Positions 1 through 7,865 of a stretch of 7,865 nucleotides of DNA are shown in pieces; the stretch's first letter is position 1, and every line of letters begins with the position of its first letter. Position numbers and translations under genes: made by a program. Source of the DNA: Candidatus Heimdallarchaeota archaeon (GTDB lineage Archaea; Asgardarchaeota; Heimdallarchaeia; Heimdallarchaeales; Kariarchaeaceae). The DNA lies in contig JAAFKL010000333.1 in the NCBI GenBank assembly GCA_021399405.1, positions 1 to 7,865 on the forward strand. The letters are read 5' to 3'. The notes beneath the pieces were generated by a model, which saw only the letters and a list, made by a program, of their open reading frames with translations, was not told the DNA's origin and ran no database searches.

Positions 1-252
1 ATTGATATTGAATGTCAGTTAATTCGGGAATTCAGATTCCAGATATTTGAATATTACATAAATGGTGTTATTTCGAATTATCGTTACCACATTATGGATG
101 TTGAGGGTAAATTACTTGTTCGTTGGGACAATGCTCCTCATTTTCCAGATTTGGAAAACTTTCCACATCATAAACACTCAGTTGTTGAAGCGATTACTTC
201 TAATCAACCTACCTTGATGCAAATATTAAACCAAGTCTCTGATATTTGGTAA
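1..252 (+). CDS. tumE: TumE-like toxin (DUF6516 family), 5' end outside the window
   Basis: The frame is open from the first base to TAA at 250-252, giving the last 83 residues of a protein that starts upstream. The visible part has the hallmarks I associate with the TumE/DUF6516 toxin family: YRYH at residues 27-30, followed by a short turn, RWDNAPH at 41-47 and FPHHKH at 54-59, with a C-terminal helix (TLMQILNQVSDIW) that ends where this family normally ends. TumE proteins are small toxins of type II toxin-antitoxin modules reported to act as ribonucleases, and they are neutralised by a TumA antitoxin encoded next to them. The stop codon overlaps an ATG (TAATG at 250-254), but that second frame runs for only 11 codons, so no intact antitoxin lies downstream. 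It may lie upstream, outside the window. Family assignment is by motif recognition only. Confidence 0.8.
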   Translation: MDIECQLIREFRFQIFEYYINGVISNYRYHIMDVEGKLLVRWDNAPHFPDLENFPHHKHSVVEAITSNQPTLMQILNQVSDIW

Positions 253-278: not shown

Positions 279-478
279 AAAAATTAAAGCACCAAATAAT
301 TATAATTTAAGAGGTCTAGTGAGTAAATAACACATTTAGTTTTTGTTTTAAATTAATTGTACTTTCAACAAATAATAGACTAAATGATCATGTTGTGATG
401 ATCTGTTTTTTTCTGAAAAAACATTTGCACACTCGTTACTTGGTTACATTGCTTTGGTTTGTATTGAGAACCACTTCC
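279..478 (+). repeat. Intergenic structured element, copy A
   Basis: This copy is about 200 bp and begins 26 bases after the tumE-like stop. It matches the other copies through a left block (attaaagcaccaaa, then ataatttaagaggtctag), an A/T-rich middle, the core taaatgatcatg, the right block cacactcgttac and the tail gaaccacttcc. The outer stem pairs 318-328 (AGTGAGTAAAT) with 423-433 (ATTTGCACACT). It has one U-G wobble and one A-A mismatch, so it is the weakest outer stem of the four. The inner hairpin is GATCAT 386-391, loop GTTGTG, ATGATC 398-403. A second hairpin is a T-run at 406-412 and an A-run at 416-421 around CTG. The tail GGTT...AACC can form a further small stem. I see no open reading frame in it. 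Together with the promoter before 590 it fills most of the gap 253-589. Confidence 0.85.
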
Positions 479-560
479 ATTTTGTCTAAAGTCATTTTTA
501 AGGTTTTACTAAAAGAAGAATGATTGATCCGAATCATTTGAATCATCGATCACCAAGCAT

Positions 561-581
561 TTTTTATATATTACAAAGGAG
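561..581 (+). promoter_or_regulatory. TATA-like box and ribosome binding site of the 590-811 gene
   Basis: A T/A-rich stretch ending in TATATA (561-570) is followed by AAAGGAG at 575-581, then an 8-base spacer to the ATG at 590. AGGAG is complementary to the anti-SD sequence of the 16S rRNA at the right end of the window. The TATA-like stretch is too close to the ribosome binding site to be the promoter of a leadered message, so only the ribosome binding site is well supported. The real promoter may lie further upstream. Confidence 0.5.
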
Positions 582-589
582 TAATTATT

Positions 590-811
590 ATGAAATCATC
601 TGATCTATCCATTGATTACGAATTAGTAAATACAATTAAAGAAAGGTGGAAATCAAAAATTCACAAGATTAGGTCATCGCCGCTTGACAGGGAGCATGTA
701 ACAAGGGGTATCCACGATCAAGCAAACCGGTTAACTAACTTCTTACTATTCAAAGAACACCGATTTGTGTTACTCATATTTCCTTTTCAAAATAGAAAGA
801 TTCGCAATTAG
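590..811 (+). CDS. Small basic protein of unknown function (73 aa)
   Basis: I do not recognise this protein. Its ATG is preceded by a clear Shine-Dalgarno sequence (AAAGGAG, 8-base spacing), which is the main reason to call it a gene. The product is 73 residues and basic. An N-terminal, probably helical half (DYELVNTIKERWKSKIHKIR) is followed by a charged stretch (DREHVTRGIHDQANR) and a hydrophobic C-terminal patch (FVLLIFPF). No signal peptide or metal-binding motif is visible. Its last 42 bases overlap the 3' end of the convergent surface-protein gene, so the C-terminus may be read-through into a neighbour and the gene could be a truncated remnant. It could also be a spurious frame, although the ribosome binding site argues against that. 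Confidence 0.45.
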   Translation: MKSSDLSIDYELVNTIKERWKSKIHKIRSSPLDREHVTRGIHDQANRLTNFLLFKEHRFVLLIFPFQNRKIRN

Positions 812-2794
812 TAGCAAAGCGACCAATACTGGTAAAGGAGATAATCCTACAGGTAGACCACCTGAACCTTCATCTGAATTTGTAAATTTAATCTTTAAAT
901 GAATTTTAGCCTCGAAATCATTATTTATTATTTGTACAACATAGGTACTTGGTGAATTAATATCAACCGAATAAATCTTACTAGTAATATCTTCTGTGTA
1001 AAGTAATGAATCTGCAGGATCATCATCATCGGGGTCAAACCAACCAAAACTATAGGTAGTACTCACAAAAACTATCAAATCCAAAACCTTTGTACTGAAA
1101 ATTTCTATTGTAATTTCAAGGGTTCCTTTTGCATCAATTTCTATTTCTCGTCGTGTACCCCCAAAGGCTAGAACTGTTATATCCTCATCCAAGATATATT
1201 CAGAAGTTGTACTTGTTAAACTGGATGACTTGGTTGATTCTATTGTAGACCTGGTAGATGTGGATTCTATCTGAATTTTATCTTCGATTATTAGTAGATG
1301 TACGCTATATTCCTTAATTAAATCTGAAAAGTAGCCAGGTGAAATTTCCAATGTGTATGTCCCAGGAGATAATGTAACCTGGACTCCCGCCCATAATCCA
1401 TTGTAATCATCATTGTACTTTATTGAATTTTCTGAAGAATCATACAACCTCATCTGATTATCTCCATCATTACCATCAGTCTCTATAGAAACCGTTGAAG
1501 GCTCATTTACATTGAATTGAAAATAATCAACATCATCCGCAGGAATGTGATTATGAATTTGTAGGGTATCGTTTAGGAGCTGAGTAGCTGTATCAAATGA
1601 GTCATTTGGTTCGTAAATATCTGCAGATATGGGGGCTATAGTTAAGTGCATTTCATAGTTTTCCACATAATCGAAAAGACCAAGTTGCGTAACAAGTACA
1701 AAATAACTCCCTGAATCTAAATATACCTCCATACCTGCCCATAATCCACTATAATCATTATTACTTTCGATCACATCATTTGAATCAGATAAAATCATAA
1801 ATGTATCTCCTAATGTACCTGCTGTCCAGATATCCACTTTGGCAAAAGAATCTGTTGAGAAGCTGAAATAATCTAGATCACTTGAAGGGGATAGATTGTG
1901 AAATTGTGTAATTCCAGGTAATAACGGAGTTGCAGTATCTTGGGAATTATTTGGTTCGTAATTATCAGGTTGAGGAAGGAGGGTATATTGGATGTAATAT
2001 TCTCCATATGCGGCAAAATAATATTCAGATACTTCGACATAGTATGTTCCTGCTTCTAAGCTAATGCTTAGGCCTGAGTAGCCATCACTATACTCTATAT
2101 CATCATTATAATCCATTTCTACCATATTAACATCGTATAACCACATTTTAGTGTCTGCCAACATATCACTTGTCCCACTTGTCCAAATTTTTATCACCTC
2201 GGGTTGTGAAAGTATAATACTGTAATAATCTACATCACCAATAGGGACTAAATTATGTAGTTGAGAGACATCAACTATTAAAGATGTTGCGGTAGCAGCT
2301 GTATCGTCGGATTCATAAGTATCAGCACTTAATGGGGAAACTAACAAATGTATATTGTATGAATTGATTATATCGAATGAATAATATGCTTCTATTGCGA
2401 CAGAATAGATTCCTGGATCTAAATAAACTAATAACCCTGCCCAAGATCCATCATACTCATCATTGTAGTCAACTAAAGTTCCTTCAGAATTATATAACAT
2501 CATGTAAGTATCTCCTGATGGTCCTGAGGTCATAATTGATACTTCTGATAATTGAGTTATTGTGAAATTGAAGTAATCAATATCTGCAGCAGGATTAATA
2601 GCATGAGTTTGTATTGAATCGTGAACTAAAATGTTTGCTGTATCAATTGAATTGTCTGGTTCATATGAATCAGCAATTACTGGAATTACACCTATATGCG
2701 ATATTGTAATAGACATAATTAGAATAAATAATAGCAAAAATTGATAAGAGTGTAACGATTTCATTTTTATTATTTGAGAGTTTTTAATTTTCAT
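770..2794 (-). CDS. Secreted, C-terminally anchored surface protein with four PPC repeats
   Basis: The 674-residue product is built for the cell surface. An N-terminal signal or anchor helix spans about residues 17-40. Four repeats of about 110 residues follow (about 43-153, 159-272, 278-388, 393-503). Most open with YEPxxSxDTA, carry D-x-DYF at 71-75, 187-191, 306-310 and 421-425, and end in G-x-Y. This is the pre-peptidase C-terminal (PPC) beta-sandwich pattern, usually found appended to secreted enzymes or adhesins. A Ser/Thr-rich stretch (510-532, probably a glycosylated stalk) leads to a further beta-rich domain (537-638). The protein ends in GSGG, a 652-669 membrane helix and KRKYE, like archaeal C-terminal sorting or anchoring tails. 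No protease or other catalytic domain is present, so a structural, adhesive or binding role is inferred. The start at 2794 lacks a strong Shine-Dalgarno; Met11 (2764) would leave a more standard signal peptide and is a real alternative. Confidence 0.85.
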   Translation of the reverse strand: MKIKNSQIIKMKSLHSYQFLLLFILIMSITISHIGVIPVIADSYEPDNSIDTANILVHDSIQTHAINPAADIDYFNFTITQLSEVSIMTSGPSGDTYMMLYNSEGTLVDYNDEYDGSWAGLLVYLDPGIYSVAIEAYYSFDIINSYNIHLLVSPLSADTYESDDTAATATSLIVDVSQLHNLVPIGDVDYYSIILSQPEVIKIWTSGTSDMLADTKMWLYDVNMVEMDYNDDIEYSDGYSGLSISLEAGTYYVEVSEYYFAAYGEYYIQYTLLPQPDNYEPNNSQDTATPLLPGITQFHNLSPSSDLDYFSFSTDSFAKVDIWTAGTLGDTFMILSDSNDVIESNNDYSGLWAGMEVYLDSGSYFVLVTQLGLFDYVENYEMHLTIAPISADIYEPNDSFDTATQLLNDTLQIHNHIPADDVDYFQFNVNEPSTVSIETDGNDGDNQMRLYDSSENSIKYNDDYNGLWAGVQVTLSPGTYTLEISPGYFSDLIKEYSVHLLIIEDKIQIESTSTRSTIESTKSSSLTSTTSEYILDEDITVLAFGGTRREIEIDAKGTLEITIEIFSTKVLDLIVFVSTTYSFGWFDPDDDDPADSLLYTEDITSKIYSVDINSPSTYVVQIINNDFEAKIHLKIKFTNSDEGSGGLPVGLSPLPVLVALLLIANLSILKRKYE

Positions 2795-2853
2795 TTTTCA
2801 GGATCCTCTGTCATCAGTATTAGATATAATGACCTATCCACAGATTGTTTTGA

Positions 2854-2870
2854 TTCTTATATAAATAAAC
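2854..2870 (-). promoter_or_regulatory. Probable TATA box for the PPC surface-protein gene
   Basis: Read on the minus strand, this is GTTTATTTATATAAGAA, a good archaeal TATA-like sequence about 65 bases before the start codon at 2794. A transcription start about 25 bases downstream would leave a leader of roughly 40 bases. The 13-base core GTTTATTTATATA recurs exactly upstream of the other minus-strand membrane-protein gene (5319-5331). Confidence 0.5.
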
Positions 2871-2995
2871 AAACTTTATCAAAGTGAATATAGTGAGTTT
2901 GAATGATCTCCAATGCAATACTGATTTGAAAAAGGGAAAAGTTTCTATTCGAAAGATGAGAATATCATCTAATTATGAATAATTTTGATTATATT

Positions 2996-3158
2996 AAAAA
3001 ATTAAGAAACCAATACAATTATAATTCAAGATGTCTAGTGTGTAAATAACACAAATATTATTTTTATTAAAATTTTACTTTCAACTAATAATAGCCTGTT
3101 TGATCATGTTGAGATGATCTGTTCTTTTTTTAAAAAAAACATTTTGCACACTCGTTAC
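2996..3158 (+). repeat. Intergenic structured element, copy B
   Basis: This copy lies in the divergent gap between the PPC surface protein (-) and hicA (+). The left block (ataattcaagatgtctagtg) is almost identical to copy D. The outer stem pairs AGTGTGTAAAT at 3037-3047 with 3141-3152, with one U-G wobble and one extra T in the right arm. The inner hairpin is GATCAT 3102-3107, loop GTTGAG, ATGATC 3114-3119. A T-run (3125-3131) is followed directly by an A-run (3132-3139). After the right block cacactcgttac (ending 3158) the conserved tail GGGTTTGAAAACCACTT is missing; only a diverged GTTGG remains. Upstream, 2954-2970 holds a separate small inverted repeat (AGATGA/TCATCT). Because it sits between two promoters, this copy cannot be acting as an ordinary terminator. 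Confidence 0.85.
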
Positions 3159-3210
3159 AAAAGTTGGTTGACAAGTAAGTGTTTTGGGTCAAATTAAATA
3201 TCGTGAGTAT

Positions 3211-3220
3211 TTTTTATATC
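3211..3220 (+). promoter_or_regulatory. TATA-like box of hicA-hicB
   Basis: TTTTTATATC ends 29 bases before the hicA ATG at 3249. This is the usual archaeal TATA-to-start distance for a leaderless or very short-leadered message. No Shine-Dalgarno sequence precedes the ATG, which fits. The promoter lies just outside structured element copy B. Confidence 0.45.
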
Positions 3221-3248
3221 TAATTTTTGATTATACAATGTTAGCTAG

Positions 3249-3524
3249 ATGGACTCTAAGCTTCAATCCAAACGGAGAAAAGCATATTCGAAGTTATCTA
3301 GATCGAACAAGAGTATCAGTTTCAAGGAATTATTTAAAATGGCTAATTTATTTGGTTTCACATTAAGACGAGTTAAAGGTAGCCATCATTTGTTCAAACG
3401 AGAAGATATTAATGAAAAATTGAATATACAAAAAAATCCAAATGATAAAAATAAGGCAAAACGATATCAAGTAAAGCAATTATTAAATATAATTAATACC
3501 TACGAGTTGTTAGAGAATGAGTAA
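3249..3524 (+). CDS. hicA: HicA-family mRNA interferase toxin
   Basis: The product is 91 residues, slightly longer than minimal HicA proteins because of a basic N-terminal extension (residues 1-20). The HicA core is clear. It has a helix FKELFKMANLFGF (25-37), the strand and loop LRRVKGSHHLFKR (39-51) with the conserved GSH motif whose His46 is the expected catalytic residue, a strand KLNIQ (57-61), and AKRYQVKQLLNIINTYELLE (70-89) as the last helix. HicA toxins have a double-stranded-RNA-binding-like fold and cut mRNA when not bound by HicB. The gene overlaps the downstream antitoxin gene by 8 bases, so the two are translationally coupled. The ATG at 3249 has no Shine-Dalgarno but a suitable TATA box upstream. 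The longer N-terminus with the LNIQ-x-KAKxYQV arrangement matches a HicA subgroup I recall from cyanobacteria. Confidence 0.88.
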   Translation: MDSKLQSKRRKAYSKLSRSNKSISFKELFKMANLFGFTLRRVKGSHHLFKREDINEKLNIQKNPNDKNKAKRYQVKQLLNIINTYELLENE

Positions 3525-3735
3525 TGAATCTAAATATCCTATTGAAATACACTGGAGCGAGGAAGATAAATGTTATATTGCTTCAGCTCCTGATCTGAAA
3601 GGTTGTACTGCACATGGATACACAAGAGAGGATGCTTTAGCAGAAATTCAAACTGCTATTGAACTGTGGTTAGAAACTGCCATTGAAGATGGGGAACAGA
3701 TCCCAATTCCTGGCAAGAAACAGATTATCGCTTAG
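3517..3735 (+). CDS. hicB: HicB-family antitoxin
   Basis: The 72-residue product matches the HicB/UPF0150 partial RNase-H-like fold. A first strand (YPIEIHWSEEDKCYIASAPDLKGC, 7-30) contains the signature Y-x-x-x-x-PDLxGC-x-x-x-G. A helix follows with EDALAEIQTAIELWLETA (38-55), and the ending is GEQIPIPGKK. It would bind and block HicA and normally represses its own operon. This version stops right after the core and has no added helix-turn-helix or ribbon-helix-helix domain, so direct DNA binding would need another contact. The ATG lies inside the last codons of hicA (8-base overlap). Structured element copy C begins 53 bases after the stop codon. Confidence 0.9.
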   Translation: MSNESKYPIEIHWSEEDKCYIASAPDLKGCTAHGYTREDALAEIQTAIELWLETAIEDGEQIPIPGKKQIIA

Positions 3736-3787
3736 GTTTAATTTACGGAATTCCTGTATCCTATATGCTAAGCTAAATTGAAATTAG

Positions 3788-3966
3788 AAAAATATTAAGG
3801 ACCATATACAACCAATTAAGATTTGGTGTGTGTAATTGACAATATCTCTTCTAAAATCAAAAAAGCCTAAATGATCAAGTTGAGATGATCTGGTCTTTTT
3901 GGCGAAAAACATTCGCACACTCGTTACCCATGGCTATATGATTCAGTTGGGTTTGAAAACCACTTT
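3788..3966 (+). repeat. Intergenic structured element, copy C (most diverged full copy)
   Basis: This copy follows hicB. The left block is diverged (accaattaagatttgg), but the core cctaaatgatcaagttgag, the right block cacactcgttac and the tail GGGTTTGAAAACCACTT are preserved. The outer stem is GGTGTGTG at 3825-3832 with CGCACACT at 3914-3921. All eight positions pair in RNA, even though both arms differ from the other copies. The inner hairpin is 5 bp here (GATCA 3873-3877, TGATC 3886-3890), with an A-A mismatch at the loop-closing position. The T/A hairpin is TTTTT 3896-3900, loop GGCG, AAAAA 3905-3909. Its stems make this copy the best evidence for conserved RNA structure. Confidence 0.82.
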
Positions 3967-4027
3967 GGTGTTAGTTTCATTTTTGGGTTATATTAAATTT
4001 TATATTAGAGAAATAAAAATTAACTTG

Positions 4028-4052
4028 ACATAAAATTATATTATTTAAATAA
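4028..4052 (+). promoter_or_regulatory. Probable TATA region of the 4074-4643 gene
   Basis: The stretch holds two overlapping TATA-like runs (ATAAAATTATATT and TTATTTAAATAAG). The second ends 22 bases before the ATG at 4074. There is no ribosome binding site between them, so a leaderless message is likely. The rest of the gap from element copy C to the gene (3967-4073) shows nothing else I can name. Confidence 0.4.
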
Positions 4053-4073
4053 GAATCATAATAATTATCTTGT

Positions 4074-4643
4074 ATGTATGTTTCTGAATCTGAAAAACAA
4101 ATAAAGCCTAATCATCAGGAATTGCTAAACACAGTTGACACGTATCCCTTTCCTTTTGAGTTAACAGTAAAATGCAAAAAAAGTGATTTAGGTCGCAAAG
4201 GATTAACAATTCAATATTCAACCCAGAAAGGGACCACATCGTTCCCTGTCAAGGTTCCAAAGGAGGGAAAACATCGATTCAATGTAACTTGTATGAATTG
4301 TGGGGTTTTATTAAATTTTCATGCAGTATCCTTGGAAAAAGAAAAATCTGAAAAAAGAAGAGCGAGGCAAACTGAATTTACACCATACATAGCCTTAAGT
4401 CTTTTTTTTTTCTATCTTTCGGGAATTGGGATAATATTAGGGGCATTCTTTGCAATAGCCGCATTTGGATTTTATAGGTCACGTGATATTCAAAGAATAT
4501 TTTATATAAGACATCCTTTCAAATTTATTGGTTCAGAACATCCATTTGAAATTAAAGACATCCTGACTGGGCAGATTGCACGTGATAGAATCAATTCAAG
4601 GTTTCTTGCAACGTGGGTTACTCGTAGACCGATTGATGTTTAA
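4074..4643 (+). CDS. Single-TM membrane protein with CxxC motif, unknown function
   Basis: I do not recognise this 189-residue protein. A soluble N-terminal domain (about 1-98) is beta-rich (FELTVKCKKSDLG, LTIQYSTQKGTTSFPVKVPK, HRFNVTCMNCGVLLNFHAVSL) and contains Cys34 and a Cys73-x-x-Cys76 pair. These could bind a metal or form a disulfide; only three cysteines are present in all, so a complete four-Cys zinc site would need a partner. A basic segment (91-98) precedes one long membrane helix (about 104-133). A C-terminal part of about 55 residues (RSRDIQRIFYIRHPFKF...) is basic. By the positive-inside rule, both basic flanks make the topology ambiguous. It is convergent with the next membrane-protein gene, with 32 bases between the stop codons. 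Start choice rests on the TATA spacing; there is no Shine-Dalgarno. Confidence 0.7.
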   Translation: MYVSESEKQIKPNHQELLNTVDTYPFPFELTVKCKKSDLGRKGLTIQYSTQKGTTSFPVKVPKEGKHRFNVTCMNCGVLLNFHAVSLEKEKSEKRRARQTEFTPYIALSLFFFYLSGIGIILGAFFAIAAFGFYRSRDIQRIFYIRHPFKFIGSEHPFEIKDILTGQIARDRINSRFLATWVTRRPIDV

Positions 4644-4675
4644 TTTCGTCACGAAGCATGATTAACCTTACGACG

Positions 4676-5164
4676 TTATTCGTCATAGTATTCCCATTCA
4701 TTATCATCCAATTCATCGTCTGACCATTCTCCTTCCTCCCATTCGTATTCTTCTGGAATTTCGCTTCCTTTTCTCATAAATCGTCTTCTCCTCATTTTGC
4801 TTTTATCTTTACGGGTTATAAGATAAATCCCAATAATTACTAGAATAATCCCCCCAAATGACCAAAGTACGAATCCTGTCACAATTAGAATCCAGCCATT
4901 ACGTCTATCATTTGGTTTAATGACACCTCTGTCTATATGATCTTGTCGTTGCCATACTTTATCAACTCTATGATTGCCATAACTATTACCCATGTCATCA
5001 AATGTCCATTTTATCCCCATAAAAAACAATCCTACCCCATAAATTATCAGAAAATAACCCAGGAAGATAAAAAGGAGGACACTTCCCACTCCAATGAAAA
5101 TTATTGACCACAATATAGCATGGAGACCTGAACTATATTCACTACGGTCATAAAGAATCGTCAT
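4676..5164 (-). CDS. Small membrane protein with acidic C-terminal tail, unknown function
   Basis: I do not recognise this 162-residue protein, but its start is well fixed by an ideal Shine-Dalgarno (AGGAGGA, 8 bases before the ATG). It has a hydrophobic glycine-rich region at about 15-50 that can form a helical hairpin. A polar loop (51-89) includes WTFDDMGN and WQRQDHIDRG, and a third membrane helix lies at about 90-117. An abrupt charge pattern follows: a very basic stretch (RKDKSKMRRRRFMRK, 118-132) and then a strongly acidic tail rich in Glu, Asp and Trp (138-162). The basic patch suggests that the tail lies in the cytoplasm. A tail of this kind could bind basic proteins, nucleic-acid-binding proteins or cations, but that is inference. 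Confidence 0.75.
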   Translation of the reverse strand: MTILYDRSEYSSGLHAILWSIIFIGVGSVLLFIFLGYFLIIYGVGLFFMGIKWTFDDMGNSYGNHRVDKVWQRQDHIDRGVIKPNDRRNGWILIVTGFVLWSFGGIILVIIGIYLITRKDKSKMRRRRFMRKGSEIPEEYEWEEGEWSDDELDDNEWEYYDE

Positions 5165-5172
5165 TCATTAAT

Positions 5173-5179
5173 TCCTCCT
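5173..5179 (-). promoter_or_regulatory. Strong Shine-Dalgarno sequence of the 4676-5164 gene
   Basis: On the minus strand this reads AGGAGGA, 8 bases before the ATG at 5164. It is complementary to the CCTCCT tail of the 16S rRNA in this window. It selects the ATG at 5164 over an out-of-frame ATG at 5168. Confidence 0.75.
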
Positions 5180-5314
5180 ATCATTTATTTTGTAAAACCT
5201 AAAATTTGAAGACCAAATTTCTATAATAATAAATTTTGATGTTGTGTTTAGTTGAATACTATTACTTCTTTTATCATTGATAACTGAATGTTTCATAATC
5301 AGGGTCTTTCCCAA

Positions 5315-5331
5315 TTTATATATAAATAAAC
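5315..5331 (-). promoter_or_regulatory. Probable TATA box of the 4676-5164 gene
   Basis: On the minus strand this reads GTTTATTTATATATAAA, about 155 bases before the start codon. A transcript starting about 25 bases downstream would have a leader of about 130 bases, long for an archaeon. The 13-base core is identical to that before the PPC surface-protein gene. The gap 5165-5467 otherwise holds the Shine-Dalgarno above and the fragmentary element copy E. Confidence 0.4.
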
Positions 5332-5395
5332 CAAGAATCGTGGGGATGGTTGAACTATGAAAATCGGTAGTGGGAAAAAAAGTAATATCAATATC

Positions 5396-5445
5396 TTATT
5401 TTTTATTTAAGTTTTATTTCAACAAATATAGCCTAAATGATCATG
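5396..5445 (+). repeat. Truncated structured element, fragment E
   Basis: Only the middle of the element is preserved: the T-rich stretch, then tttcaacaaatatagcc and taaatgatcatg. The match ends abruptly at GATCATG, where the loop of the inner hairpin would begin. Neither arm of the outer stem, nor the right block cacactcgttac, is present. The fragment is in the same (+) orientation as the full copies and lies 22 bases beyond the vapC stop codon. Confidence 0.7.
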
Positions 5446-5467
5446 CATAGCTTTTTGGATGTTTTAA

Positions 5468-5902
5468 TTATTGGATAATATTTATTTGTTTTTTGAAGGA
5501 TAAAAACTCACTTTCAAAAGAGGCTACATGCTTAATATTTAATTCCAAAGCAGTAGCAATTATAACACAATCAGTAAAGGATAGTGGTTTTCTCCCAGTT
5601 TGGTTTTGAAATAGTTGCCATGCTTGTTTAAAGAGTAATTGGTTAATCATTATGAATTGCAAAATGTCCTCTGTGTCCCTCATAACTATAGATCCCAACT
5701 CTGTAGCTTTTTTATTAGAATTAGATCTTGATTGAACCAAGGTAGCTAATTCGTCAAATACATAATCAAGAAGAATCGGTTTTCCATATTGGCCATCCAA
5801 AATTTCGCTGTAAATGGTTCTTGCCCTTTGATGATCGTTATCATTTGCGTTATAAAAGGCATAAAAAAAATTTGTATCAAGAATAATCAATTGATCACCC
5901 AT
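5468..5902 (-). CDS. vapC: VapC-family PIN-domain ribonuclease toxin
   Basis: The 144-residue protein has the PIN nuclease signature. LDTN at 8-11 gives catalytic Asp9. DYVFDELATL (46-55) gives the second acidic position, most likely Glu51. LSFTDCVIIATA (107-118) gives Asp111. The last motif, normally F-D-x-D-F, is FESEF (129-133), with Glu in place of Asp. These acidic residues would hold Mg or Mn ions for RNA cleavage. VapC toxins cut tRNA, rRNA or mRNA at specific sites when freed from VapB. The frame stays open for 15 codons further upstream, but the ATG at 5902 is preferred because LDTN then falls at the usual distance from the N-terminus. That start also gives an 8-base overlap with vapB, typical of coupled pairs. 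Confidence 0.88.
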   Translation of the reverse strand: MGDQLIILDTNFFYAFYNANDNDHQRARTIYSEILDGQYGKPILLDYVFDELATLVQSRSNSNKKATELGSIVMRDTEDILQFIMINQLLFKQAWQLFQNQTGRKPLSFTDCVIIATALELNIKHVASFESEFLSFKKQINIIQ

Positions 5903-6155
5903 ACAATTCTTCATCAATCGATTCTGAATTACTTGGGGGGAAATCAAATGTAGTCCTCATCACCCTCTTTTTGACTTTTGTACTAACTCCTTTGAACAAT
6001 TCATTTTCTAAGACAGTAGGATGGGTTTCTGCAATTGTAACCAGTAAATCGATTAGGTCTTCCTGATTTAATTTTCGACCTTTAAGTAATTGTTGTGCTT
6101 TAAGTCGATCCAGGCGTACTTTTGTCTCATCTCGAACCTTAACTGTTGTCACCAT
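5895..6155 (-). CDS. vapB: VapB-family ribbon-helix-helix antitoxin
   Basis: The 86-residue protein begins TTVKVRDETKVRLDRLK, a ribbon-helix-helix pattern with the DNA-binding strand at about residues 2-8 and helices at about 10-22 and 31-45 (LNQEDLIDLLVTIAE). The C-terminal 40 residues, ending in an acidic DEELYG, should be the part that wraps the VapC toxin. As a dimer it would also repress its own promoter, which lies immediately upstream. The start is the ATG at 6155: a TTG two codons earlier is in frame but less likely, and the TATA box stands at the right distance for a leaderless message from the ATG. It is followed by vapC with an 8-base overlap. Confidence 0.85.
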   Translation of the reverse strand: MVTTVKVRDETKVRLDRLKAQQLLKGRKLNQEDLIDLLVTIAETHPTVLENELFKGVSTKVKKRVMRTTFDFPPSNSESIDEELYG

Positions 6156-6177
6156 AATCAATATAGATACTTGTATA

Positions 6178-6190
6178 CTTTTATACCTTT
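6178..6190 (-). promoter_or_regulatory. BRE/TATA promoter of vapB-vapC
   Basis: On the minus strand this reads AAAGGTATAAAAG, a purine-rich BRE-like stretch joined to a canonical archaeal TATA box, ending 22 bases before the vapB ATG. It is followed by the palindrome GTATAC (6173-6178), a plausible part of a VapB operator. The spacing indicates a leaderless transcript. This is the clearest archaeal promoter in the window. Confidence 0.65.
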
Positions 6191-6304
6191 TGCCTATTTT
6201 ATGTCTGTTTAACGCGATAAATTGTAGGGATTTAGGCTATACTTAGACACATATTAGTTTCGATTTATTGGTTTGTACTAAAAACCCTGTCCCTATTGAT
6301 AATC

Positions 6305-6448
6305 ATGAGTTTACAATATATTATGGGTACATTTGTGCTTGTCATTTTACTTGACGCTAATTTCTCATACTTTTTAGGAATAGTAACGTTCAATAATTTT
6401 CTTATACCTCTTATCACCAATTTGATAGGATTTTGGGTTGAAAACTGA
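6305..6448 (+). CDS. Possible 47-residue hydrophobic peptide (weak)
   Basis: An ATG at 6305 opens a 47-codon frame ending in TGA at 6446-6448. The product is mostly hydrophobic, with two potential membrane segments (about residues 4-16 and 20-44, the second broken by NN and P). There is no Shine-Dalgarno, and no good TATA box at a fitting distance, so this could be chance. It occupies the middle of the 320-base divergent gap between vapB and the toroid-protein gene, where I see nothing else except short AT-rich promoter-like runs near both ends. Confidence 0.22.
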   Translation: MSLQYIMGTFVLVILLDANFSYFLGIVTFNNFLIPLITNLIGFWVEN

Positions 6449-6506
6449 TTTGTGCAAATATTAGGATTGATTGATCCAGATAAAACTTTATTTATTGTGG
6501 GGTTAG

Positions 6507-7475
6507 ATGGAATTCAGCGTTCTACCAGAACATGACATACCAAACAAAGTGTTAAGCTGGCTGTTGGAACCTTCTAACCCTTCGGTGCGCTATCGAACAT
6601 TAATTGATTTACTAAATTATCCACCTAACGACCCAGAAATTCAACTATCTTATAACGAGATTATGAATTGGAAACCCGTATTGAAAATAAAAAATGCGAT
6701 GCATCCGGAAGGTTACTGGCAAGTCAAAGTAGAAAAGGGAAAAATCGTCGGTAAAGATACGGATTATCGGACTTTTAATACAACTCATTGGGTATTAGGA
6801 TACCTTGCGGAATACGGGCTCGCCCGCAAGGAAGAATTTATCAATCTTGCTAGCAATCGTTATTTAGATCTACAAAAAAGTGATGGGGATTTCTGGCAGC
6901 ATTTATCTTGTCTCTATGGCTTAAATCTTTATACATTTTCCAAACTCGGTTTCGAACCAGACCCCCGAATCCAAAAAACCATTGATTTGGTTGCTTCATC
7001 AATTAGATATGATAACGGTTATTTATGTGATATTCATGAAGGTAAGAAGCGTAAAGGGAGATTAGTCAAGAGCTGCTTTAGGGGAACCCTCAAAGTGTTA
7101 TTTGGACTAACTGAATTCCCATCAAAATGGAATCATCCTAGTGTAAAGACACTTGTGGACTATTTCTTAAACCGTGAACTCCTATTTAAGAGGAGTAAAC
7201 CAAAGGAATTGGTAGTAAAAAATTCGGGAGCTTTGGTATTTCCCTTTACTTATCGAGAAGGATTATTGGAAAATCTCTATCCACTTCTCAAAATGGGGTA
7301 CGGAAATCATCCCAAATTTATGAGAGCATGGGAACTCTTCGAATCTAAAAAACTACCGGACGGGAAGTTTCCATTGGAGTGGAATCCGATGAATAGATAC
7401 CTTAAACCCGGCAAAAAGGGAGAAGCAAATAAATGGATTACATTTTATGCTTATCTCCTGTATAAATTAAAATAA
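6507..7475 (+). CDS. Alpha/alpha-toroid (prenyltransferase/terpene-cyclase-like) protein
   Basis: The 322-residue protein is all-helical, with the repeated aromatic and glycine motifs of the six-hairpin toroid fold shared by terpenoid cyclases and prenyltransferases. WLLEPSNPSVRYRTLIDLL lies at 18-36, GYW at 69-71, TTHWVLGYLAEYGL at 92-105, DGDFWQHLSCLYGL at 126-139, YDNGYLCD at 168-175, and FESKKLPDGKFPLEWNP at 278-294. Proteins of this group in archaea and clostridia are usually annotated only by fold, some misleadingly as NifH-like nitrogen fixation proteins. I see no DxDD cyclase motif and no DDxxD prenyl-diphosphate motif, so catalysis of a terpene reaction is not supported. Cys135, Asp173/Cys174 and other polar residues line the repeats, but no full metal site is obvious. 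A TATA-like run (ATAAAACTTTATTTA, about 6480-6494) precedes the ATG; a G-rich GTGGGG lies just before it. Confidence 0.75.
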   Translation: MEFSVLPEHDIPNKVLSWLLEPSNPSVRYRTLIDLLNYPPNDPEIQLSYNEIMNWKPVLKIKNAMHPEGYWQVKVEKGKIVGKDTDYRTFNTTHWVLGYLAEYGLARKEEFINLASNRYLDLQKSDGDFWQHLSCLYGLNLYTFSKLGFEPDPRIQKTIDLVASSIRYDNGYLCDIHEGKKRKGRLVKSCFRGTLKVLFGLTEFPSKWNHPSVKTLVDYFLNRELLFKRSKPKELVVKNSGALVFPFTYREGLLENLYPLLKMGYGNHPKFMRAWELFESKKLPDGKFPLEWNPMNRYLKPGKKGEANKWITFYAYLLYKLK

Positions 7476-7532
7476 ATTAAATGAATTGAAAAATCAGAGA
7501 AAACCACGGTTATCATCAGGAAAAAAGAGTAT

Positions 7533-7712
7533 GAAAAGATTAAAGCACCAAACAATTATAATTCAAGATGTCTAGTGTGTAAATAATACATACATTATAT
7601 ATTTTTCAACAAAATTTTTCCTAAATGATCATGTTGAGATGATCTGTTCTATTTTACAAAATACATTTGCACACTCGTTACTTCGGTTCGGTTGGGTTTG
7701 AAAACCACTTCC
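7533..7712 (+). repeat. Intergenic structured element, copy D (most canonical)
   Basis: This 180-bp copy begins 57 bases after the toroid-protein stop and ends 75 bases from the 16S rRNA 3' end. It has every conserved block. The outer stem pairs AGTGTGTAAAT 7574-7584 with ATTTGCACACT 7665-7675, eleven positions with one U-G wobble. The inner hairpin is GATCAT 7627-7632, loop GTTGAG, ATGATC 7639-7644. The T/A hairpin is TATTTT 7650-7655, AC, AAAATA 7658-7663, in which a T-to-A change is matched by an A-to-T change. The tail hairpin is GGTT 7695-7698, TGAA, AACC 7703-7706. Its left block is nearly identical to that of copy A, 7 kb away. Confidence 0.87.
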
Positions 7713-7746
7713 CTTTAAGGTTAAAGTTAAAAAATGGTGAAACTCA

Positions 7747-7772
7747 TGGGTTCAATCTTGCGACTGAACCCA
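7747..7772 (-). other. Hairpin just downstream of the 16S rRNA
   Basis: TGGGTTCA (7747-7754) and TGAACCCA (7765-7772) are perfect 8-base inverted repeats around a 10-base loop, 14 bases beyond the mature 16S end on the minus strand. It may be a processing signal or a transcription end for an unlinked 16S transcript. There is no U-run directly after it, so a simple intrinsic terminator is not clearly shown. It does not have a tRNA T-arm sequence. Confidence 0.5.
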
Positions 7773-7786
7773 CAAATTCCGTACAT

Positions 7787-7865
7787 AGGAGGTGATCCGC
7801 CCGCACCTTCCGGTACGGGCACCTTGTTACGACTTCTTGCTACTCAAAGAGCACAGACTTGTTCA
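7787..7865 (-). rRNA. 16S ribosomal RNA, 3' end (partial)
   Basis: The minus strand reads AGAAGTCGTAACAAGGTG, the universal sequence before helix 45. It continues with GCCCGTACC-GGAA-GGTGCGGGC, a 9-bp helix 45 with the GGAA loop that is normally dimethylated, and ends GGATCACCTCCT with the anti-Shine-Dalgarno. The gene continues beyond the right edge. The mature end is placed at about 7787 by comparison with other 16S genes. Helix 45 differs from the common archaeal GCCGUAGG/CCUGCGGC, but the differences are paired. No tRNA-Ala or 23S follows within the window: the next items are a hairpin, element copy D and a gene on the other strand. Confidence 0.95.

Follow-up and report, generated by a model that had tools for sequence, protein, structure and literature searches.

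A family of short co-oriented intergenic repeats on a contig with several toxin-antitoxin-type loci

Introduction

What are the similar stretches of ~160–200 bp that recur between the genes of a 7,865-base contig, and is it their pairing or their sequence that has been kept? The whole contig was analysed and is referred to below as the window. A preliminary description had presented the stretches as structured intergenic elements, and had offered two explanations, a new family of non-coding RNA or a small non-autonomous mobile element carrying one. We examined the extent of the family, the distribution of conservation within it, its predicted folding and its occurrence elsewhere, and weighed these two explanations against other kinds of repeated site.

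Small repeats of Asgard archaea seem to be little described, and a literature search on the small RNAs, repeats and mobile elements (insertion sequences included) of Asgard archaea and lokiarchaea found no title that names such a family. Better characterized systems are available for comparison. Excerpts of PMC2759123 describe ERIC (RU-1) of enterobacteria as a 127-bp intergenic, multicopy, dispersed sequence with internal pairing, and the consulted part of PMC10969869 describes miniature inverted-repeat transposable elements (MITEs) as normally intergenic, with one family located mainly in 3' untranslated regions.

Results

Copies of the repeat

The window contains a repeat family with four full copies (A to D) and one fragment (E), listed in Table 1. 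A two-block pattern occurs four times in the window and in none of 200 dinucleotide shuffles, and a profile built from the four full copies detects fragment E, which lies outside the profile; no further copy was found in the window with this profile below E = 1. The coordinates first given for the full copies were thus confirmed, as was the existence of a fragment, although its extent, initially given as 5396–5445, had to be enlarged to the left. All five copies are intergenic and lie on the plus strand, in agreement with the claimed co-orientation, for which the chance is 1 in 16; ORFs and rRNA make up 73% of the window. Three of the four full copies (A, C and D) start 26–59 nt past a same-strand stop codon, and B and E have no same-strand gene upstream. 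Fragment E is separated by 22 nt from the end of a PIN-domain gene on the opposite strand.

The core of the element, measured from the outer stem described below to CGTTAC, is ~109–122 bp long. The tail AACCACTT is found in A, C and D and missing from B, as originally reported. The same description had noted the absence of both an ORF and terminal inverted repeats, and we came to the same result on each point: no long ORF is common to all copies, and in all four full copies the ends match no better than chance (62–97% of 500 shuffles score equally high). The four aligned in-element frames were compared with proteins in case copies had been mistakenly translated, and none of 26 candidates matched at E up to 10.

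Table 1. Positions of the repeat copies, their conserved parts and the toxin-antitoxin-type genes in the window
Feature	Position	Strand	Remarks
Full copy A	279..478	+	26 nt past the stop of the TumE-like toxin gene; tail present
Full copy B	2996..3158	+	ends at CGTTAC; tail not recognisable; between the divergent PPC gene and hicA
Full copy C	3788..3966	+	52 nt past the hicB stop; left half most diverged; tail present
Full copy D	7533..7712	+	follows the 322-aa gene stop by ~59 nt; 72 nt separate it from the 16S rRNA 3' end (16S on −); tail present
Fragment E	5365..5445	+	T-rich middle to GATCATG; similarity then ends inside the central core; E = 2.5e-5
Central dyad GATCAT-GTTGTG-ATGATC, copy A	386..403	+	equivalents start at 3102, 3873 and 7627
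Invariant right block CACACTCGTTAC, copy A	428..439	+	equivalents end at 3158, 3927 and 7681
TumE-like toxin gene, 3' part	1..252	+	upstream of copy A
HicA (3249–3524) and HicB-like (3517–3735) toxin-antitoxin pair	3249..3735	+	Pfam PF07927, PF15919; framed by B and C
PIN-domain gene (5468–5947) and short ORF (5895–6161)	5468..6161	−	adjoins fragment E; VapB-like antitoxin label from position only

Conserved blocks and divergence

Pairwise identity among the full copies is 63–82%, and varies along the element: the core to CGTTAC is 82–88% identical in all pairs, the left part 63–81% and the tail 33–77%. The invariant columns (87 of the 162 free of gaps) are clustered, with runs of 13 (GCACACTCGTTAC) and 9 (GATGATCTG), run lengths that occur together in 0.2% of 20,000 column shuffles, the longest alone occurring in 1.5%. 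The conserved elements are a short dyad, GATCAT-N6-ATGATC, and a block pair, GTGTG...CACACTCGTTAC. In the dyad, 6-bp arms surround a 6-bp centre and the inner 6 bp are perfect in three of the four copies; extended to 11 bp, the arms match at 8, 6, 6 and 8 of the 11 positions. Straight after the invariant CGTTAC the copies diverge in sequence, the tail beyond it being common to three of four. The similarity of fragment E ends at 5445, inside the 6-bp dyad centre and 22 nt before the end of the PIN gene.

The copies show no clear grouping, with only 9 columns pairing them two by two and these split over all three possible groupings. Recombination between copies was considered and rejected, since the informative columns are too few and the left and right halves show no contrast. 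Ten of the 12 flank comparisons are without similarity, which argues against plain segmental duplication; the two exceptions, A compared with D on the right side (2.7% of shuffles) and C compared with D on the left (1%), score marginally, given that 12 tests were made and that the shuffle is approximate. With mostly dissimilar flanks and no clear grouping, the copies look dispersed rather than derived from duplicated long segments. Matches resembling bacterial promoters, seen in the left block of A, B and D on its minus strand, were discounted because the host is probably archaeal.

Predicted folding

It had been proposed that every full copy forms an outer stem enclosing two hairpins. Aligned together, the four copies yield a consensus fold of this kind, with an outer stem of 11 pairs and hairpins of 6 and 5 pairs, and with an energy of −12.8 kcal/mol compared to −4.6 (sd 2.4) for 200 column shuffles, of which one was as low on the plus strand; the consensus fold is weaker on the minus strand, where three of 200 shuffles were as low. 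At the level of single copies the proposal holds in part. The minimum energy fold of A contains the layout both full-length and trimmed, with one outer-stem mismatch, and that of B contains it when trimmed, the longer B forming both hairpins without the outer stem, whereas the single fold of D has the outer stem and lacks hairpin 1, and that of C has no part of the layout. None of the four full copies has a fold energy more than 1.3 sd away from that of dinucleotide shuffles (z = 0.76 for D, −0.14 for A, −0.70 for B and −1.22 for C). For the trimmed cores of A, B, C and D, z is −0.98, −1.89, −0.54 and −1.72 on the plus strand and −0.42, −3.55, −0.50 and −0.59 on the minus strand.

The 22 consensus pairs comprise 13 that never vary, 8 that are broken in one copy and 1 that is compensated, both of its bases having changed. 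Covariation adds an unfavourable +1.62 kcal/mol, and the observed pair measures are reached by 131 of 500 shuffles, all of these being measures on four sequences, with low power. Sliding the partners reduces the paired fraction from 91% to 53% or less, as for any consensus-derived structure. Since most changes in the predicted stems break pairs, it is the sequence rather than the pairing that seems to be kept.

A search against Rfam 15 gave no family above the gathering threshold, either for the whole window (E up to 1) or for the regions of D and B (E up to 5), consistent with the earlier remark that no named archaeal RNA or repeat with this layout was known to its author. As a structured RNA, the repeat would be either a small RNA or, where transcription of the upstream gene continues into it, a 3'-UTR element; the outer stem and both hairpins would form on the plus strand. 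We consider this fairly unlikely. The strand preference of the consensus fold and its advantage over column shuffles argue for it, together with an invariant outer-stem U-G pair that can pair only on the plus strand, the single compensated pair, and the position of A, C and D directly after same-strand stop codons; but B and E lack such a gene upstream, eight of the nine varying pairs are broken in one copy, the covariation term and the 131 equalling shuffles point the other way, and the single folds depart from the layout wholly in C, partly in D and in full-length B. The strand evidence from trimmed cores is likewise divided, as A, C and D favour the plus strand and B folds better against shuffles on the minus strand. 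The absence of a match in Rfam also counts against it. The structured-RNA reading is weaker than first claimed, and the covariation check proposed for a new RNA family leaves that family unsupported on these four copies.

Occurrence outside the window

The pattern ATGATCTGN{14,34}CACACTCGTTAC has five matches in the species contigs of GTDB r220, where ~10 would be expected by chance according to our own uniform-base estimate, and two in IMG/VR, both inside a predicted ORF. These seven loci were rejected as copies, BLAST of the four copies finding only words of 13–19 nt there. Five more pattern scans of IMG/VR gave 0, 4, 0, 13 and 0 matches (17 in all). When all 25 fetched loci were compared with the four-copy profile, the best E-value was 5.2e-4, for two loci with one common 31-nt match around the searched word, which we take to be chance. 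With copy D as the only query, BLAST found two records among plasmids and two among phages, with matches of 25–33 nt only.

The family was therefore not found in the searched collections (Rfam, GTDB contigs, IMG/VR, phages and plasmids), the matches being only weak or chance-like. GTDB r220 includes lokiarchaeal genomes, and since the scan of its contigs required 20 exact bases, diverged copies in other lokiarchaea could be missed. The preliminary description had counted a lack of further copies in relatives against its own proposal; at the level of exact matches, such a lack was seen in the contigs of GTDB r220 and in IMG/VR.

Neighbouring genes

Three toxin-antitoxin-type loci (TumE-like, HicA/HicB, and PIN with a short ORF) lie within 7.9 kb, a striking density. 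The genes between copies run in both directions, with five ORFs between C and D. HicA had only two relatives besides itself in a search that relied on short words in common.

The 322-aa protein (6507–7475) has no Pfam domain and 368 relatives at E up to 0.001, and is 65–88% identical to 11 aligned relatives. Its best named relatives are Promethearchaeota (87% identity to an unclassified member, 81% to Promethearchaeum syntrophicum and 79% to Lokiarchaeum ossiferum); judged from these comparisons, it is a conserved family without assigned function. From the named relatives we take the contig to be probably lokiarchaeal. Eight pattern-matching stretches were found for it in IMG/VR, and none was confirmed.

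A caution to this assignment is that for the 81 bases of the 16S 3' end (7785–7865) the bacterial Rfam model scores best, although the nearest protein gene appears lokiarchaeal; two overlapping clan matches were left untabulated. Between copy D and 16S, immediately beyond this end on the minus strand, lies a hairpin of 19 pairs with a T-run after it (7739–7780), likely a processing or termination signal. The end of ORF 590–811 (73 aa) overlaps the opposite-strand PPC gene, and the ORF may be a truncated gene. It was rejected as a transposase fragment, having no match in Pfam, NCBIfam, PHROGs, PDB or plasmids.

Discussion

A proposed small dispersed repeat

The explanation that we favour, and to which we give an even chance, is a lineage-restricted non-coding dispersed repeat of ~160–200 bp in what is probably a lokiarchaeon, of the same general sort as ERIC, REP and MITE sequences. 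In broad terms the family qualifies as such because it is short, non-coding, multicopy and intergenic in all five places on this one contig, and the small non-autonomous element first offered as an alternative fits it. This reading is favoured by the presence of four full copies and a fragment in 7.9 kb, all between genes, and by the position of A, C and D after stop codons, comparable to that of the MITE family of 3' untranslated regions. The repeat would have been copied around the genome by a mobilising activity acting in trans, after which the copies would have diverged independently. The conserved core is probably protein-binding, and the dyad and the CACACTCGTTAC block are most likely the parts that a protein recognises. 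The blocks may be kept constant by such a protein, whose target could be the DNA itself or a hairpin, formed either when the DNA is single-stranded or in read-through RNA.

The likeness to known dispersed repeats is incomplete. Like ERIC, the family is short, intergenic, multicopy, dispersed and internally paired, but ERIC carries TA at its ends together with TA duplications and forms stable stem-loops, whereas the present repeats have no target duplication, fold no more stably than shuffles, differ in sequence and probably belong to another domain of life. Prokaryotic MITEs, including SM1–SM4 of Sulfolobus, are likewise small, non-coding, multicopy and intergenic (PMC10969869, in excerpt), but the present family differs in having neither terminal inverted repeats nor target-site duplications in any of the four copies, and so falls outside the strict definition of a MITE. 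The best shared words at the boundaries, which are themselves uncertain, are 3–4 nt long and are reached at 73–99% of random places. A parent insertion sequence was not found, nor was an autonomous relative of the repeat, and Pfam shows no transposase among the 10 main ORFs.

Several observations count against a mobile dispersed repeat. Besides the missing inverted repeats, target duplications, transposase and autonomous relative, no empty site was seen, the five copies share one orientation, which a random inserter need not produce, and the blocks are conserved more strongly than a dead repeat would keep them. The marginal flank similarities (A and D on the right, C and D on the left) also count against it, and the consensus fold that beats column shuffles leans towards RNA. 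What the dispersed-repeat reading explains least well is the co-orientation together with the toxin-antitoxin neighbours, and these keep alive a reading in terms of gene cassettes.

A possible recombination site of gene cassettes

The repeat could be a site-specific recombination site, analogous to attC or Xer sites and different in type, that frames movable cassettes in a toxin-antitoxin-rich array. We think this unlikely, and the more specific proposal improbable, namely that the repeats are the recombination sites of an unrecognised integron-like cassette system of Lokiarchaea, whose non-attC site, built from the dyad core and the CGTTAC end, collects toxin-antitoxin modules. The three toxin-antitoxin-type loci, with hicAB framed by B and C, are what such an array might look like, as are the co-oriented copies with three of four placed 26–59 nt past a same-strand stop; but the genes between copies run in both directions, five ORFs separate C from D, and no recombinase occurs among the 10 main ORFs. 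The abrupt divergence after the invariant CGTTAC would suit the end of a site, except that a tail beyond it is common to three of the four copies, and no mosaic signal distinguishes left from right halves.

In attC sites the 5' R box is RYYYAAC. On the plus strand this box is absent from all four copies with 60-nt flanks, and the 3' box GTTRRRY occurs only in the tails of C and D (as GTTGGGT) and never at CGTTAC, so that membership among attC sites was rejected. Read from the sequence, TAACAC lies ~110 nt upstream of the right block end TCGTTA in A and B, with TGAC in C and TAAT in D in its place, and would sit on the inner side of the outer stem. A left word on the inner side is in the wrong order for attC topology.

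The attC site, or 59-base element, was compared on the basis of excerpts of four sources. Its R box at the 3' end is GTTRRRY (PMC9892861), and in vibrios it ends in GCGTTA, 80–150 bp from TAACAA (PMC1382264), which resembles the TCGTTA at the end of the right block and the ~109–122 bp of the core. Co-orientation, nearby toxin-antitoxin genes and the position of three of four copies after stop codons are further likenesses, and PMC9668308 reports that integrons are enriched in Asgard archaea, toxin-antitoxin systems accounting for 10.5% of functionally predicted cassette proteins, which favours a cassette system. Known attC sites vary in sequence and keep their structure (PMC9024848), the opposite of the present family, which on its four sequences keeps sequence rather than structure. 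Together with the absent boxes, this sets the repeat apart from attC.

The inverted arms around a 6-bp centre, inside which the similarity of fragment E ends, also recall Xer/dif and p-dif sites. A Xer/dif site consists of two 11-bp arms of opposite orientation around 6–8 bp. The extended arms of the repeat match at only 6–8 of 11 positions, and the element is about seven times longer.

IS200/IS605 elements are without terminal inverted repeats and use subterminal hairpins. That the copies are remnants of single-stranded-DNA elements of this kind is very unlikely: inverted repeats and target duplications are absent as predicted and a possible GGTT-AACC hairpin can be read near the right end of A, C and D, but no common short target word is obvious by eye at the left boundary, the only Rfam hint is IS605-orfB-II at B (13.8 bits, E 4.9), and the Pfam scan, which covered the 10 main ORFs, showed neither TnpA nor TnpB.

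The significance of the family depends on which of these readings is correct. As RNAs, the repeats would make up a multicopy family not described before. As an ordinary dispersed repeat, the reading that we favour, they would be a handy marker of a lineage and of assembly breakpoints. And if they are recombination sites, they would point to a second route, in addition to that of integrons, through which the archaeal relatives of eukaryotes collect genes.
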